In this document: positions 22,001-36,211 of the stretch, in pieces
Numbering within the stretch: the first letter of the stretch is position 1
Layout: the number at the start of each line of letters is the position of its first letter
Assembly (NCBI GenBank): GCA_013202295.1
Contig: JABMRT010000245.1
Coordinates: 1 to 36,211, forward strand
Direction of reading: 5' to 3'
DNA from: Candidatus Zhuqueibacterota bacterium
GTDB taxonomy: Bacteria > Zhuqueibacterota > QNDG01 > JABMRT01
DNA length: 36,211 nt
Made by a program: the position numbers and the translations under genes
The notes under the pieces: generated by a model
Told to the model about the DNA's origin: nothing
The model's input: the letters and a program-made list of their open reading frames with translations, nothing else
Database searches by the model: none

Positions 22001-22121
22001 ACGTACGAATGACATGCTCCGATGCTGGATAATGCCTGAAAGTAATTTGAATATTATTTTGAGCCAGAAGGTTGCAGAAAAATAAAGCAAAGAAAAGAAT
22101 AAACTTGAACAATATTTTCAT
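19080..22121 (-). CDS. Secreted alpha-amylase-family glycoside hydrolase (GH13) with sorting domain
   Basis: 1013 residues. Signal peptide 1-20 (MKILFKFILFFALFFCNLLA), then a CBM48/E-set-like module about 25-115 with FVPGSFNGWGPNSN, Ig-like linker modules to about residue 405, the GH13 barrel about 415-790, a C-terminal beta domain, and a sorting domain from about 925 (FRLYPNYPNPFNAGT... to KICLIR). Catalytic regions: I, DVTPNH (510-515); II, GFRFDVYW with Asp603 as nucleophile; III, LLLGEAPG with Glu637 as acid/base; IV, ENQD with Asp702. Region IV usually reads NHD, so His is replaced by Gln701. The enzyme should cut alpha-glucans at the cell surface or outside the cell. It lies between a secreted binding protein and the symporter. 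Confidence 0.94.
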   Translation of the reverse strand: MKILFKFILFFALFFCNLLAQNNIQITFRHYPASEHVIRTFVPGSFNGWGPNSNGVIDSNAPSRMKNTEAFQFYYKTYTLQTGQTEQYKFHEHFNDGSPGTWLTDPLNPNINTQDNDNSVLNVQEAMIFEVYPSAGSVLTDTLSYLTAGIFISDADALLQEVSSILIDGEVVSSFTGWMIDSLSILHYQMRDLENGLHTAFIHAETENGLILEDSTQFTFRAGEIFFITPSHDSILTAEKTIRWQVSLDENAIQSLKLVQLAHDPVLLTAETGIMDYSVQLYYGVNSFMVELTDTSGTTFLTDTLLLEFPEPQDPVPSIHFSLEDNQIRVTGSGGDPQGNPVQYMWMNQSLNPEIISNLESQTDSTFLIDLPSLPGDYAIRLDVVDDESLTGHSVQFFSVMDDLSVMLPESETIPLWVHDARIYCMFVRSYTNEGTLQAATENLEHIRDMGFSVIWVIPIMDVEGVVDQGVNIGYNIIDFFNVEPFYGSNQDFKDFVEAAHEIGLRVIMDVTPNHSSRSHPIAQDVRSNQLYSRYYDFYQHEIIPHNDMGLGQSVSSDGIVYYSAFSDALLNWNYSDAEARQYMINVYRHWLAEYDIDGFRFDVYWGPNHRYGRDAFDRPLRNALRALKSDILLLGEAPGTGVGSELIYADQSGGVDISYDWNLNGALQGFPSVSNLHTQLLNGNYRPGPNSLFLRFLENQDEERVAYRYDSIEKTIPVSTAIFAGTGLPMIFQGQEVGMGYGMGGGRDFRVRSTVDWDNSPVTILAPHYQKLAQIRSQFPAFRRQFEDSNEDGLINSGDLNIQDRLLTSNSSVYAMARPFLNQNGLAVMNFSSTFKSVDVYVDPESWMEFSPLMRPIDLYYLNDLYRNTSTQILGSDLDTLQIELEPYGISIFTISLSPDSLILPELAVRVQPDVKSLTLSQFRLYPNYPNPFNAGTMIQYDLPKKCDVQIRIIDILGRRVRKLHSGQQIAGHYEIRWDGKNDDSMISPSGLYIVIVKIESYIKSRKICLIR

Positions 22122-22218
22122 CTTTTATCCTATCATCAGCAAAAATGCCAAGGACAATTTCATTGTATGAATCATCACTATGAAGATAAAAAGTCTGATG
22201 AATGAAAAGATGAAAACA

Positions 22219-22244
22219 GGTTCAGGCATTTTCATGCCTGAACC
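22219..22244 (-). terminator. Hairpin after the small secreted protein gene (terminator or RNA processing signal)
   Basis: A perfect 11-bp stem, GGTTCAGGCAT and ATGCCTGAACC, closed by a GAAA tetraloop on the minus strand, 14 bases after the stop at 22258. A loose T-rich stretch (TGTTTTCATCTTTT) follows. It may terminate partly, or protect the upstream message, before the amylase gene. Confidence 0.65.
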
Positions 22245-32971: not shown

Positions 32972-34003
32972 TTACAAATTCATACCTGGAACCTGAGAAC
33001 CGCAGCTTTTGCGTATCACAAGCTTGGTGTGAAATCTCTGGCGGATTACAGGCAGTTCTGAATCATTCATCCGATCAATCAATCTCTGGATCGCGGTTTG
33101 CCCCATTTCAAACAGGGGTTGATGCATGGTGCTCAGTGACAGATATTCTGCCATTTCTATGTCGTCAAATCCTACTATAGAGACATCTTCTGGAATACGC
33201 AATCGTGATTCATGGATCGCCTGTATCGCGCCTGCCGCTTGAATATCGCTTGCAATAAATACTGCTGTAGGCCGATCCTCACCCATCGCGATCAATTGCT
33301 GCATACTTTCATAACCGGCTTCTCTGTTAAATCCGTCTTTTTCAGTTAAATCATGCGTGATCACAAGATACGCATCATTAAATGGAAGCCCATGATCGAC
33401 CAGGGCCTTTTTGTATCCATCCAGCCGGACCTGCGCCGGAGCACTTTTGAGCTGCGCATCCACCATGCCAATTTTTTTATGCCCCAGACTTATGAGGTGG
33501 GATGTGGCAAGATAGGCTCCCTCTCTGTTTTCTACAGTTAGAGAATCCAGATCAGAATGCAGACTATCGACAAGTACGATTGGAAAACGGGATTGTTGAA
33601 ACTGTTCAGCGTATTTATCCGACATTTTAAGTGAAACCAGAAGCACACCATCCACCCGGCTTTCGCTAAGAGTGCGTTTGAGAAAGGCTTCAGTGCGATC
33701 GCCTTCATCCACACTGTAAAGGAGCAAATCATAATTGTTTTTCGCTGCTTCTTTTTGGATCCCCTTTAGGAGCTCTAAATAAAAATATCCAGTGAAAACC
33801 GGAACAATAATGGCAATCATGTGGGTTTTTTTACGGGCGAGACCCTGTGCAAGCGCGTGCGGTTGATATTTAAGATCATGAATAGCTCGAAGCACCCGCG
33901 CCTTTGTATCAGGCTTGATTTGAGTACTTTCGTTCAATGCGCGGGACACGGTGCCGATACCGACACCTGCGCGTTTTGCTACATCATAAATGGTTGCTGT
34001 CAT
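32972..34003 (-). CDS. LacI-family transcriptional regulator of the glucan locus
   Basis: 343 residues, full length. The N-terminal helix-turn-helix MTATIYDVAKRAGVGIGTVSRALNES with hinge helix (YQPHALAQGLARKKTHMIAIIVPV) is typical LacI/GalR. The effector-binding domain has the usual FTGYFYLELLKGIQKEAAKNNYDLLLYS, VDGVLLVSLKMSD, FPIVLVDS, HLISLGHKKIGMVDAQ, TAVFIASDIQAAGAIQAIHE and VSIVGFDDIEMAEYLS segments. It is the first gene of the minus-strand glucan locus. Two identical inverted repeats lie between its promoter and its ATG, so it very probably represses itself and the genes downstream, with an inducer such as maltose or another glucan sugar (the sugar is inference). Regulators of this type in other bacteria control malto-oligosaccharide genes. 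Confidence 0.95.
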   Translation of the reverse strand: MTATIYDVAKRAGVGIGTVSRALNESTQIKPDTKARVLRAIHDLKYQPHALAQGLARKKTHMIAIIVPVFTGYFYLELLKGIQKEAAKNNYDLLLYSVDEGDRTEAFLKRTLSESRVDGVLLVSLKMSDKYAEQFQQSRFPIVLVDSLHSDLDSLTVENREGAYLATSHLISLGHKKIGMVDAQLKSAPAQVRLDGYKKALVDHGLPFNDAYLVITHDLTEKDGFNREAGYESMQQLIAMGEDRPTAVFIASDIQAAGAIQAIHESRLRIPEDVSIVGFDDIEMAEYLSLSTMHQPLFEMGQTAIQRLIDRMNDSELPVIRQRFHTKLVIRKSCGSQVPGMNL

Positions 34004-34018
34004 GGGTTTGCCTGTTTA

Positions 34019-34032
34019 TGGAAGCCCTTCCA
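34019..34032 (-). promoter_or_regulatory. LacI-type operator site 1
   Basis: TGGAAGCCCTTCCA: perfect 6-bp inverted arms (TGGAAG/CTTCCA) around CC, 16 bases upstream of the regulator's ATG at 34003. It is identical to site 2, 44 bases away. On the predicted transcript it lies about 46-59 bases downstream of the start point. Confidence 0.75.
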
Positions 34033-34062
34033 CATAAAGAGAAATAAAAATGGGCTTACCTG

Positions 34063-34076
34063 TGGAAGCCCTTCCA
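34063..34076 (-). promoter_or_regulatory. LacI-type operator site 2
   Basis: Second identical copy of TGGAAGCCCTTCCA, placed immediately downstream of the predicted -10 box (34085-34090), at or just after the expected transcription start. Binding here would block the promoter; the two sites 44 bases apart could be bridged by a looped tetramer or bound by two dimers. Confidence 0.75.
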
Positions 34077-34084
34077 TGGTTTTT

Positions 34085-34113
34085 AACATACAAAATGATT
34101 CATGGATTGTCAA
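34085..34113 (-). promoter_or_regulatory. Sigma70-type promoter of the glucan locus
   Basis: Minus strand: perfect TTGACA (34113-34108), a 17-base spacer, TATGTT (34090-34085). The start point would fall near 34078, directly at operator 2. It is the only convincing promoter found for the minus-strand locus. Confidence 0.75.
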
Positions 34114-34265
34114 GAGATTTTTATGATTTTTTACGAAGGTTTTACGAACTTGCCGTTAACGATTTCTTTTCTAGTCTTTTTCTAACATGAGTTTCTGCGC
34201 GTCGCTACCCACGCGTCGGTGTCCAATAATTTGTAACTATGTTTCAGAATCCGAAAAGAACTCTG

Positions 34266-34283
34266 GGATCGCGGTAGCGATCC
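34266..34283. repeat. Short perfect hairpin next to the attC-like element
   Basis: GGATCGC-GGTA-GCGATCC: a 7-bp perfect stem with a 4-base loop, directly abutting the long palindrome starting at 34284. The remaining sequence from 34114 to 34265 has no gene and no other structure I can support. Confidence 0.5.
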
Positions 34284-34417
34284 GCAGCTAACGGTACGTA
34301 TAAGAATAGTAGCCAACTTCGGGCTTCTTTCCTGTTGAGTTACAAGAAAATTGAAGCGGGATGAAACCCCTTAATTTACTACTATCTTGGCTATTATTTT
34401 TATACATTGTTCTCTGC
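34284..34417 (-). other. attC-like long palindrome A, after the serine hydrolase gene
   Basis: Plus strand order: GCAG-CT-AAC, spacer GGTAC, arm GTATAAGAATAGTAGCCAA (34298-34316), 70-base loop region, arm TTGGCTATTATTTTTATAC (34387-34405), spacer ATT, GTT-CT-CTGC. The 19-base arms pair throughout if two G/T wobbles are allowed, and the outer AAC/GTT and GCAG/CTGC also pair. Short simple-site arms, unpaired spacers and a total of 134 bases match the architecture of integron attC sites. It begins 6 bases after the hydrolase stop, where an attC site belongs in a cassette. No integrase is in the window and the consensus core boxes are imperfect. Confidence 0.4.
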
Positions 34418-34422
34418 CGTTT

Positions 34423-35637
34423 TTAATTTTTCGCATAAATTATTTCCGAAAATCGTTCAAACAAAGATGTTGTTTCAAAATGGTTAAAGGGCATATGCTG
34501 AGTGTAAATACTGGCAGCAATTCCTAATTTAAAATCAATAAAGAAGTAGGTATTCATATATCCGCCCCAAGTAACTGAACCCTCCTTTCTTCCATAATAT
34601 TTAGGATTATTATCAATCATAAAAGCTAGTCCCCATTTCGAGTTTTCACTCATTAGTCCATTAAAATTACAACATGTTCCCGAGTCGAAATATCTGCCTT
34701 CAGGATTAAGTGTTATATCTCCAATTTGATTCCGGATCATTTTGGCAATAGTTTCTTTTCTTAATATTCTTCCTTCTGCATATTTTCCTTCATTCAATAA
34801 ACATTGAAGTATCTTTGTATAATCTGAAGGTGAAGAGAATAGTCCTCCACCTCCACTGAAAGTGGTTACTTTTGCTTTTTGTACTCGATCAGGTGATTCA
34901 GTTAATTTCTGATTGCCATCATTACCTCTTTCACCCCATGAAACAATATAATTATGGAGAGAATCAGGTACATTGAAAAAAGTTCGGGTCATACCTAGGG
35001 GTTGTGTGATATTCTCTTTAAAGTATTCTTCAAGATTCATATTCGATAGCTTTTCAACCAGCTTCCCTGCCCAGTCAGTACTAGTCCCATAAAGAAAATC
35101 CGTTCCGCTTTCAAAGTGTCTTGGAGAGTCTTCATAATTCCAATTCTCATTATTGAAATCCCCAGCATTAACCGTGAATCCCGAATATCCAAATCCCGAA
35201 GTATGTGTTAAAAGGTGACGAAGTGTGATTTTTCTTTTAGGCTCTATTAATTCACCATTAGATAATATTGGTATATTTGTCATTTCCGGCATTATAATAG
35301 ACAAATCGTCATCCAGACCAATCAGCCCATTTTCCACACATTGCATTGCTGCAATACTCGTAACAAGTTTGGTCATGGACCAAATCCTGAATATGTGTTC
35401 TGGTGTAACCTTTGCATCTTCTTTCCATACAGCATTGCCATAACTATAGTTTACTTTTTCTCCGTTTTTATTTATGGCAATAGCAACTACGGCAGGTAAA
35501 TCACTTTTTTCAATAGCCTCGTTCATTTGTTTATTTACTTTTTCCTGTGAAGGGAGAGAGCTTGAATTATCTTTATTACAGCAGACAAACGAGAGAATTA
35601 TTGAGAAAAAAAGACAATATTTTACTATGGTTTTCAT
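34423..35637 (-). CDS. Exported serine hydrolase, class C beta-lactamase/EstB fold
   Basis: 404 residues from ATG 35637, chosen because it opens an export signal (MKTIVKYCLFFSIILSFVCCNKD), possibly a lipoprotein with a weak lipobox ending at Cys20 or Cys21. Upstream in-frame codons to 35715 are less likely. The serine hydrolase motifs are SMTK (FRIWSMTKLVTSIAAMQ, Ser nucleophile and Lys), YGT (DFLYGTSTDWAGKLVEKL, Tyr) and WGG (GSVTWGGYMNTYFF). LRHLLTHTSGFGY is also typical. Such proteins are esterases, peptidases or uncharacterised; resistance to beta-lactams should not be assumed. Codon use is A+T-rich (two 60-base samples count 37% and 38% G+C against 55% in one sample from the receptor-partner gene) and there is no Shine-Dalgarno site, only an A-run. 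Attributes suggest transfer. Confidence 0.9.
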   Translation of the reverse strand: MKTIVKYCLFFSIILSFVCCNKDNSSSLPSQEKVNKQMNEAIEKSDLPAVVAIAINKNGEKVNYSYGNAVWKEDAKVTPEHIFRIWSMTKLVTSIAAMQCVENGLIGLDDDLSIIMPEMTNIPILSNGELIEPKRKITLRHLLTHTSGFGYSGFTVNAGDFNNENWNYEDSPRHFESGTDFLYGTSTDWAGKLVEKLSNMNLEEYFKENITQPLGMTRTFFNVPDSLHNYIVSWGERGNDGNQKLTESPDRVQKAKVTTFSGGGGLFSSPSDYTKILQCLLNEGKYAEGRILRKETIAKMIRNQIGDITLNPEGRYFDSGTCCNFNGLMSENSKWGLAFMIDNNPKYYGRKEGSVTWGGYMNTYFFIDFKLGIAASIYTQHMPFNHFETTSLFERFSEIIYAKN

Positions 35638-35771
35638 ATTACTTTTTTTTAATGGCTGAGAACGATTGTGTATACGCATTGCTGTTATTCCTCCAATTTG
35701 GCAGGATAACAACAATTGTTGATATTTTACTTTTATGATTTTTCATGTTAAATTTCCATTCACCTACCACA

Positions 35772-35888
35772 TAACGTCGATCATCAGGGGTTCAACGCCA
35801 AACGAAATTATCCCGAAGTACGATTTTTGACAAACCTCTCAAATCCTCAAAAATGGTGAGCGTTTGAATCCCCTGCATGATTAGGTTA
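35772..35888 (-). other. attC-like long palindrome B, upstream of the serine hydrolase gene
   Basis: Left arm TAAC, spacer GTCG, ATCAT, CAGGGG, TTCAA, CGC (35772-35798). Right arm GCG, T, TTGAA, T, CCCCTG, C, ATGAT, spacer TAG, GTTA (35860-35888). All blocks pair perfectly, leaving three single-base bulges (35863, 35869, 35876), all on one arm, and unpaired spacers between the terminal TAAC/GTTA and the long stem. One-sided extrahelical bases and an internal spacer are the hallmarks of folded attC sites. A further ATTTTTGA/TCAAAAAT stem lies in the loop. It sits 7 bases after the stop of the gene at the right edge. Its sequence is unrelated to element A. Confidence 0.45.
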
Positions 35889-35894
35889 GCCCAA

Positions 35895-36211
35895 TTATTT
35901 GAGCATAATCATCTTCTTGACTCCCGTGCGATTTTTGCTTTGTAATGAATAGAAATAAACTCCTGTTGCAATATTTTGATTTGATAAATTACGTCCGTCC
36001 CATACAATTTGATGCCAACCAGCGCTCTGGTTTTCATCGACAAGAGTTCTTACTTTTCTGCCGAGTTCATCAAAAATGGTTAGATTCACTGAACCTGATT
36101 GATCGACTCTATACTTGATTGTTGTTGATGGATTAAACGGATTTGGATAATTCTGAAGCAATTCAAGCGATGAAGGTCTGCTTAGGGTTCCATCTTCACT
36201 GGGTATCTCAG
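35895..36211 (-). CDS. C-terminal end of a secreted protein with sorting domain (5' part beyond window)
   Basis: The frame is open to the right edge (105 full codons are visible); the rest of the gene is outside. What is seen is almost wholly the type IX-like sorting domain: SSLELLQNYPNPFNPSTTIKY, VNLTIFDELGRKVRTLVDENQSAGWHQIVWDG, GVYFYSLQSK and the KKMIMLK end. Nothing can be said of the catalytic or binding part. The stop is followed at once by palindrome B. Confidence 0.9.
   Translation of the reverse strand, partial: EIPSEDGTLSRPSSLELLQNYPNPFNPSTTIKYRVDQSGSVNLTIFDELGRKVRTLVDENQSAGWHQIVWDGRNLSNQNIATGVYFYSLQSKNRTGVKKMIMLK

Follow-up and report, generated by a model that had tools for sequence, protein, structure and literature searches.

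A serine hydrolase gene cassette between two attC sites at the edge of an integron cassette array in a Zhuqueibacterota draft genome

The right edge of the window (the whole 36,211-nucleotide stretch of DNA that was analysed, which is the entire contig C238) is almost certainly the end of an integron cassette array, in which two attC sites, A and B, bound one complete mobile cassette encoding a serine hydrolase. The host genome is a draft of 5.15 Mb in 303 contigs with an estimated contamination of 1.7%. A single gene lies between the two sites, which share one orientation. The features of the locus are as follows:

32972..34003, reverse strand: LacI-family regulator (PF00356, PF13377), the first gene past the array, in ordinary chromosome
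34286..34415, reverse strand: attC site A, of an A+T-rich long-stem type (R2 model, 90.8 bits, E 1.3e-19)
34292..35774, reverse strand: complete gene cassette, bounded by the G^TT of both R' boxes (1483 bp, 34.6% GC)
34423..35679, reverse strand: serine hydrolase of the beta-lactamase/family VIII carboxylesterase fold (PF00144, 4.5e-47)
35643..35735, reverse strand: cassette leader of 93 bp, an imperfect inverted repeat holding GGAGG and the ATG at 35679
35769..35891, reverse strand: attC site B (64.6 bits, E 3.5e-10 with covariance model R1, from which B was excluded)
35895..36211, reverse strand: 3' portion of the preceding gene, encoding a C-terminal sorting domain of type IX secretion (PF18962, 1.7e-9; FlgD_ig, 3.7e-11)

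The last of these genes runs off the contig, which ends 320 bases past site B. It is probably the preceding cassette, because its stop codon stands only 3 nt before the R'' box of B. At the other side, the LacI-family regulator has matches at E <= 1e-40 in 86 of the 119 genomes searched (own genome included); its closest relatives share about 60% protein identity and are too distant for comparison of the junction at DNA level.

Two families of attC site

A preliminary description of this DNA, made from its letters, had proposed a possible integron-type cassette between two palindromes with AAC/GTT ends, each closely following a stop codon of the same orientation. Palindromes of this kind were recovered near the places it gave, with lengths of 123 nt (B) and 130 nt (A) and with gaps from stop codon to R'' box of 3 nt and 7 nt, respectively. 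As it had also stated, the two are alike in architecture and not in sequence: they are unrelated to each other, and each has homologues in the same genome at 71-76% identity. Their plain folding energies are only moderately unusual (z -1.95 and -2.50 against shuffles), and a profile test was therefore needed. Two covariance models were used: R1, built from 13 other attC sites of the genome (A, B and the sites closely homologous to them were excluded), and R2, an A-type model built from two homologues inside cassette arrays (C248, C139).

The 13 sites behind R1 covary in the geometry expected of attC, which was tested as an R box stem, a spacer and an L stem in which columns 16, 20 and 24 of the R''-L'' arm are left unpaired. 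In this geometry 83.1% of cells are paired, compared with 63.0% in shuffles, and there are 62 double-change cells, compared with 23.2; none of the 500 shuffles reached 62. When the partner is shifted by one column, pairing falls to 37-44%. Two to three extra-helical bases on the R''-L'' arm are a hallmark of attC sites (PMC2727003).

Site B is an ordinary attC of its own genome, since R1, run with all filters off, scores it at 64.6 bits. Its R'' box (GGCTAAC, 35891-35885) and R' box (GTTATGT, 35775-35769) each match the RYYYAAC / GTTRRRY consensus at 6 of 7 positions, and crossover is expected between G35775 and T35774. The bulged bases G16 and A23, 7 nt apart, both stand on the R''-L'' arm, in agreement with the one-arm placement reported earlier. 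A same-genome search returned homologues at C248:14755-14878 and C139:10787-10910 and a half copy at C289:127-169; three stem pairs in this family carry compensatory changes on both sides. The cassette that follows the B-type site on C139 (L033 9655-10821, reverse strand) encodes another PF00144 serine hydrolase.

Site A belongs to a second, divergent A+T-rich attC family, because R2 scores it highly while the general model R1 hardly sees it. With R1 it obtains 10.7 bits (E 3.9) and ranks second, only slightly above noise at 9.6; in the R2 scan it obtains 90.8 bits, followed by 20.1 for the same palindrome on the opposite strand and then by 12.0, the case for A being one of homology to array sites, two of which were used in R2. 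Its homologues lie at C248:12779-12910, C139:8202-8332 and C131:4692-4821. The core boxes are imperfect, as previously noted for both palindromes: R' (GTTAGCT, 34292-34286) matches the consensus at 6 of 7 positions and R'' (AGAGAAC, 34415-34409) at only 4 of 7, with AAC and GTT retained in every member of the family. The stem of the family is fully paired and nearly invariant, and A itself has A.C mismatches rather than clear bulges. Our own palindrome scorer gave 14.7 for B, gave 15.6 for an unrelated palindrome at 22104-22226 and missed A because of its poor R'' box; it was therefore not relied on for either site. A 27-nt segment just past A (34266-34292, GCGGATCGCTANNGCGATCC) matches L034 2219-2245 on C271 at 85%, where its partner is part of a weak attC-like site; it is possibly a remnant of a further site, or a chance match.

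It is extremely improbable that the palindromes have nothing to do with an integron and are instead rho-independent terminators or interspersed palindromic repeats. Their position just after stop codons and their moderate folding energies would suit terminators, but terminators do not have conserved AAC/GTT ends, an unpaired spacer, one-arm bulges or lengths of 120-130 nt. The reading is also contradicted by the covariation in attC geometry and by the array context: the same model finds dozens of sites in one-orientation arrays, and the genome has an integron integrase. An Rfam search of 33900-36211 returned nothing above threshold. The proposal of an integron-type cassette is supported by profiles from the same genome that score both sites and set exact boundaries, by homologous sites in arrays of that genome and by the encoded integrase. 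The preliminary description had named, as grounds against it, background-level scores together with the presence of the hydrolase at an unchanged position in relatives; the scores are high, and the relatives searched lack the hydrolase except for two matches at 33% identity.

The hydrolase and its leader

The cassette hydrolase shares the PF00144 fold and an SxxK motif (SMTK) with family VIII carboxylesterases and LovD-type transesterases, and among solved structures it best matches transesterases of the LovD type and family VIII esterases (8.6e-42). Unlike AcmB and the class C beta-lactamases, it falls below their NCBIfam cut-offs. It scores 194 bits against a cut-off of 550 for AcmB; assignment as a class C beta-lactamase was rejected, with 59.6 bits against a cut-off of 415 for bla_class_C. 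The segment beginning at an inner methionine at 35638, MKTIVKYCLFFSIILSFVCCNKD, looks like a lipoprotein signal peptide, so that the hydrolase would be a secreted, lipoprotein-like enzyme of esterase type.

The gene is A+T-rich, as the preliminary description had it, with 34.8% GC compared with 45.1% in positions 1-34000 of the window. The closest relatives of the gene (67-70% identity) all come from Bacteroidota MAGs, and the best that 58 relatives of its own genome offer is two matches at 33% identity. Low GC, Bacteroidota relatives and the distance of these matches together fit horizontal acquisition of the hydrolase. No attC-like site was seen beside two close relatives of the gene (L065, L066), the former of which has little downstream sequence.

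A contig that is misbinned or chimaeric, with a cassette from another organism, would also account for such a composition: the draft is in 303 contigs with some estimated contamination, and the cassette is 10 GC points off the rest of the window. However, low GC is usual for cassettes of this genome (36-38% in the array stretches of C139, C57 and C234), and homologues of both site types are also present on several further contigs of the bin, some of them with long flanking stretches that are not cassettes. We regard misbinning as very unlikely.

The hydrolase was previously said to lack a Shine-Dalgarno site, and this does not hold for the extended start of the gene. GGAGG at 35694-35690 stands 10 nt ahead of the ATG at 35679, in frame with the hydrolase, and the site is absent only at the inner methionine at 35638, where the signal peptide starts. 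Both elements lie in the leader, which is 90% identical to C271:2041-2130 (L034, reverse strand), a copy that likewise comes directly behind an attC-like site, which R1 scores at 24.8 bits. Weaker copies occur on C181, C248 and C259 (L119 6201-6284; L014 13385-13441, reverse strand; L120 1703-1731, reverse strand), and the C259 copy also follows an attC-like site. No attC was seen before the copy on C181, which precedes a gene, and for this reason the leader may not be cassette-specific. The leader RNA folds into a hairpin that buries GGAGG (z -3.5), and in the window cassette its start is fused in frame to the hydrolase. One speculative and rather doubtful reading is that some cassettes carry a leader module after the attC, whose hairpin would hide the Shine-Dalgarno site and abut the start codon, giving the cassette its own translational switch.

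Cassettes and integrases across the genome

At E <= 0.1, R1 detects 63 sites in the genome; four more come from R2, giving at least 67 on 31 contigs. Clusters were counted from the genome searches and from fetched stretches, and the draft assembly prevents an exact count. Dense arrays are present on C139, C57, C142, C248 and C271, and three of these contigs (C139, C57, C271) are almost wholly array. Other clusters lie inside long contigs (C287, C68, C248) or at borders between chromosome and array (C238, C5, C218, C142, C242, C252); C287, C68, C248, C142, C218, C5, C242 and C252 also hold tens of kilobases without sites. As clusters are found both mid-contig and at several borders, the cassettes occupy several chromosomal places. 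Within arrays, sites are about one gene apart and in one orientation. For example, the homologue sites on C248 separate unrelated genes, among others those for a nitroreductase, a DUF4932 protein and a thioredoxin-like protein, with attC-kind palindromes intervening between them.

The earlier remark that no integrase is seen stands for the window, in which no integrase gene was found, and does not extend to the genome. Just ahead of its end, contig C8 encodes an integron integrase of 331 residues, which reaches 451 bits with TIGR02249 (cut-off 265). The translated sequence shows the catalytic Arg, Lys, His-x-x-Arg and Tyr motifs as well as the insertion specific to IntI, and the gene is apparently intact. 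It is the one apparently full-length integrase gene found in the genome; C241 carries a second, disrupted copy.

Several observations concern the surroundings of these genes. On C8 (L012 10936-12918), intI is followed by a same-strand 117-aa ORF and a gene without a Pfam match, and then by the contig end. In the copy on C241 (L013 1-360), an insert of about 300 bp breaks the gene close to its C-terminal end and holds a GIY-YIG nuclease ORF (PF01541) between the inverted repeats TTACCCTGTGAGATA and TATCTCACAGGGTAA; this insert is single copy in the genome by DNA search. In several relatives intI is also near a contig end (e.g. G007, G003, G032), and at loci L087 and L095 attC sites lie 3' of intI, in its own direction.

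IntI-like matches at E <= 1e-60 occur in 37 of the 119 genomes searched (own genome included), several with adjoining classical attC arrays; in G062 (locus L090), seven classical attC sites stand beside the match. Integrons were already known from the Bacteroidetes/Chlorobi/Ignavibacteriae group (PMC9024848), and clusters of cassettes apart from intI have precedents, among them seven loci in Xanthomonas (PMC12444791).

From these sequences we infer that the hydrolase cassette moved by the integron route and can still move. In the established mechanism, the bottom strand is bound in folded form by the integrase, whose orientation is set by the extra-helical bases on the R''-L'' arm, and strands are exchanged in R' (PMC2727003). 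An integrase from elsewhere in the genome would accordingly bind the folded bottom strand of A and B, strand exchange would take place at the G^TT of R' in each site, and the cassette would be excised as a circle and reinserted in another array. The intI gene and the cassette lie on different contigs of the 303-contig draft.

The route by which the cluster came to its present place is a separate matter from the identity of the cassette. One or more cassettes may have been inserted beside the LacI gene through attC x attG recombination, a form of secondary-site insertion described by Loot et al. (2024; cited in PMC12444791); alternatively, the cluster would be the tail of an array that formerly possessed an intI at this place. 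Clusters at several separate places, together with a single apparently full-length integrase gene, favor such entry. Against this, the contig does not reach the far side of the cluster, no empty site is available and the relatives are too remote to reveal one, and draft assembly and binning could split the pieces of one array. We consider entry by attC x attG a serious possibility, falling just short of an even chance.

The cassette is of an already known kind. What makes the genome moderately interesting is the size and spread of its cassette collection rather than the window cassette itself: it holds its many attC sites at several chromosomal places, in a lineage outside the Vibrio, Xanthomonas and class 1 models. 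Such genomes are useful for understanding the spread of cassettes beyond attI and the functions carried in environmental integrons, in this case that of a secreted enzyme of esterase type. In addition, the A+T-rich attC type is nearly invisible to the general attC model, and cassette counts in such genomes are therefore lower bounds.

Comparison with known integron systems

The leader resembles ORF-11 of attI1 in class 1 integrons (PMC8876359) in role and not in sequence. Both are short upstream frames with their own Shine-Dalgarno site near a cassette gene. Unlike ORF-11, the window leader lies inside the cassette after the attC, within a hairpin, and is fused in frame to the gene.

Taken locally, the locus resembles a cassette cluster of CALIN type, lacking an integrase and bordering on ordinary chromosome. 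CALINs, as defined in IntegronFinder, are clusters of attC sites lacking an integrase (PMC9024848), and the likeness consists in two attC sites, no intI nearby (none in the 36-kb window) and several clusters per genome. The cluster is locally integrase-less because the contig ends before any intI, and is not callable as a true CALIN because the contig ends inside it; false CALINs are known to arise when draft assemblies break up arrays (PMC9024848).

A complete integron, with intI, attI and cassettes together, was not found in the window, and intI is on C8 and C241. The correspondence with chromosomal (sedentary) integrons is nevertheless extensive. Common to both are the R'', L'', L', R' architecture of the attC sites, with extra-helical bases, a spacer and a variable end, one gene per cassette in the orientation of the attC, and related attC sites within the genome. 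Unlike chromosomal integrons, the window locus has its intI off-contig and attC sites that fall into two or more sequence families, including an A+T-rich, long-stemmed one.
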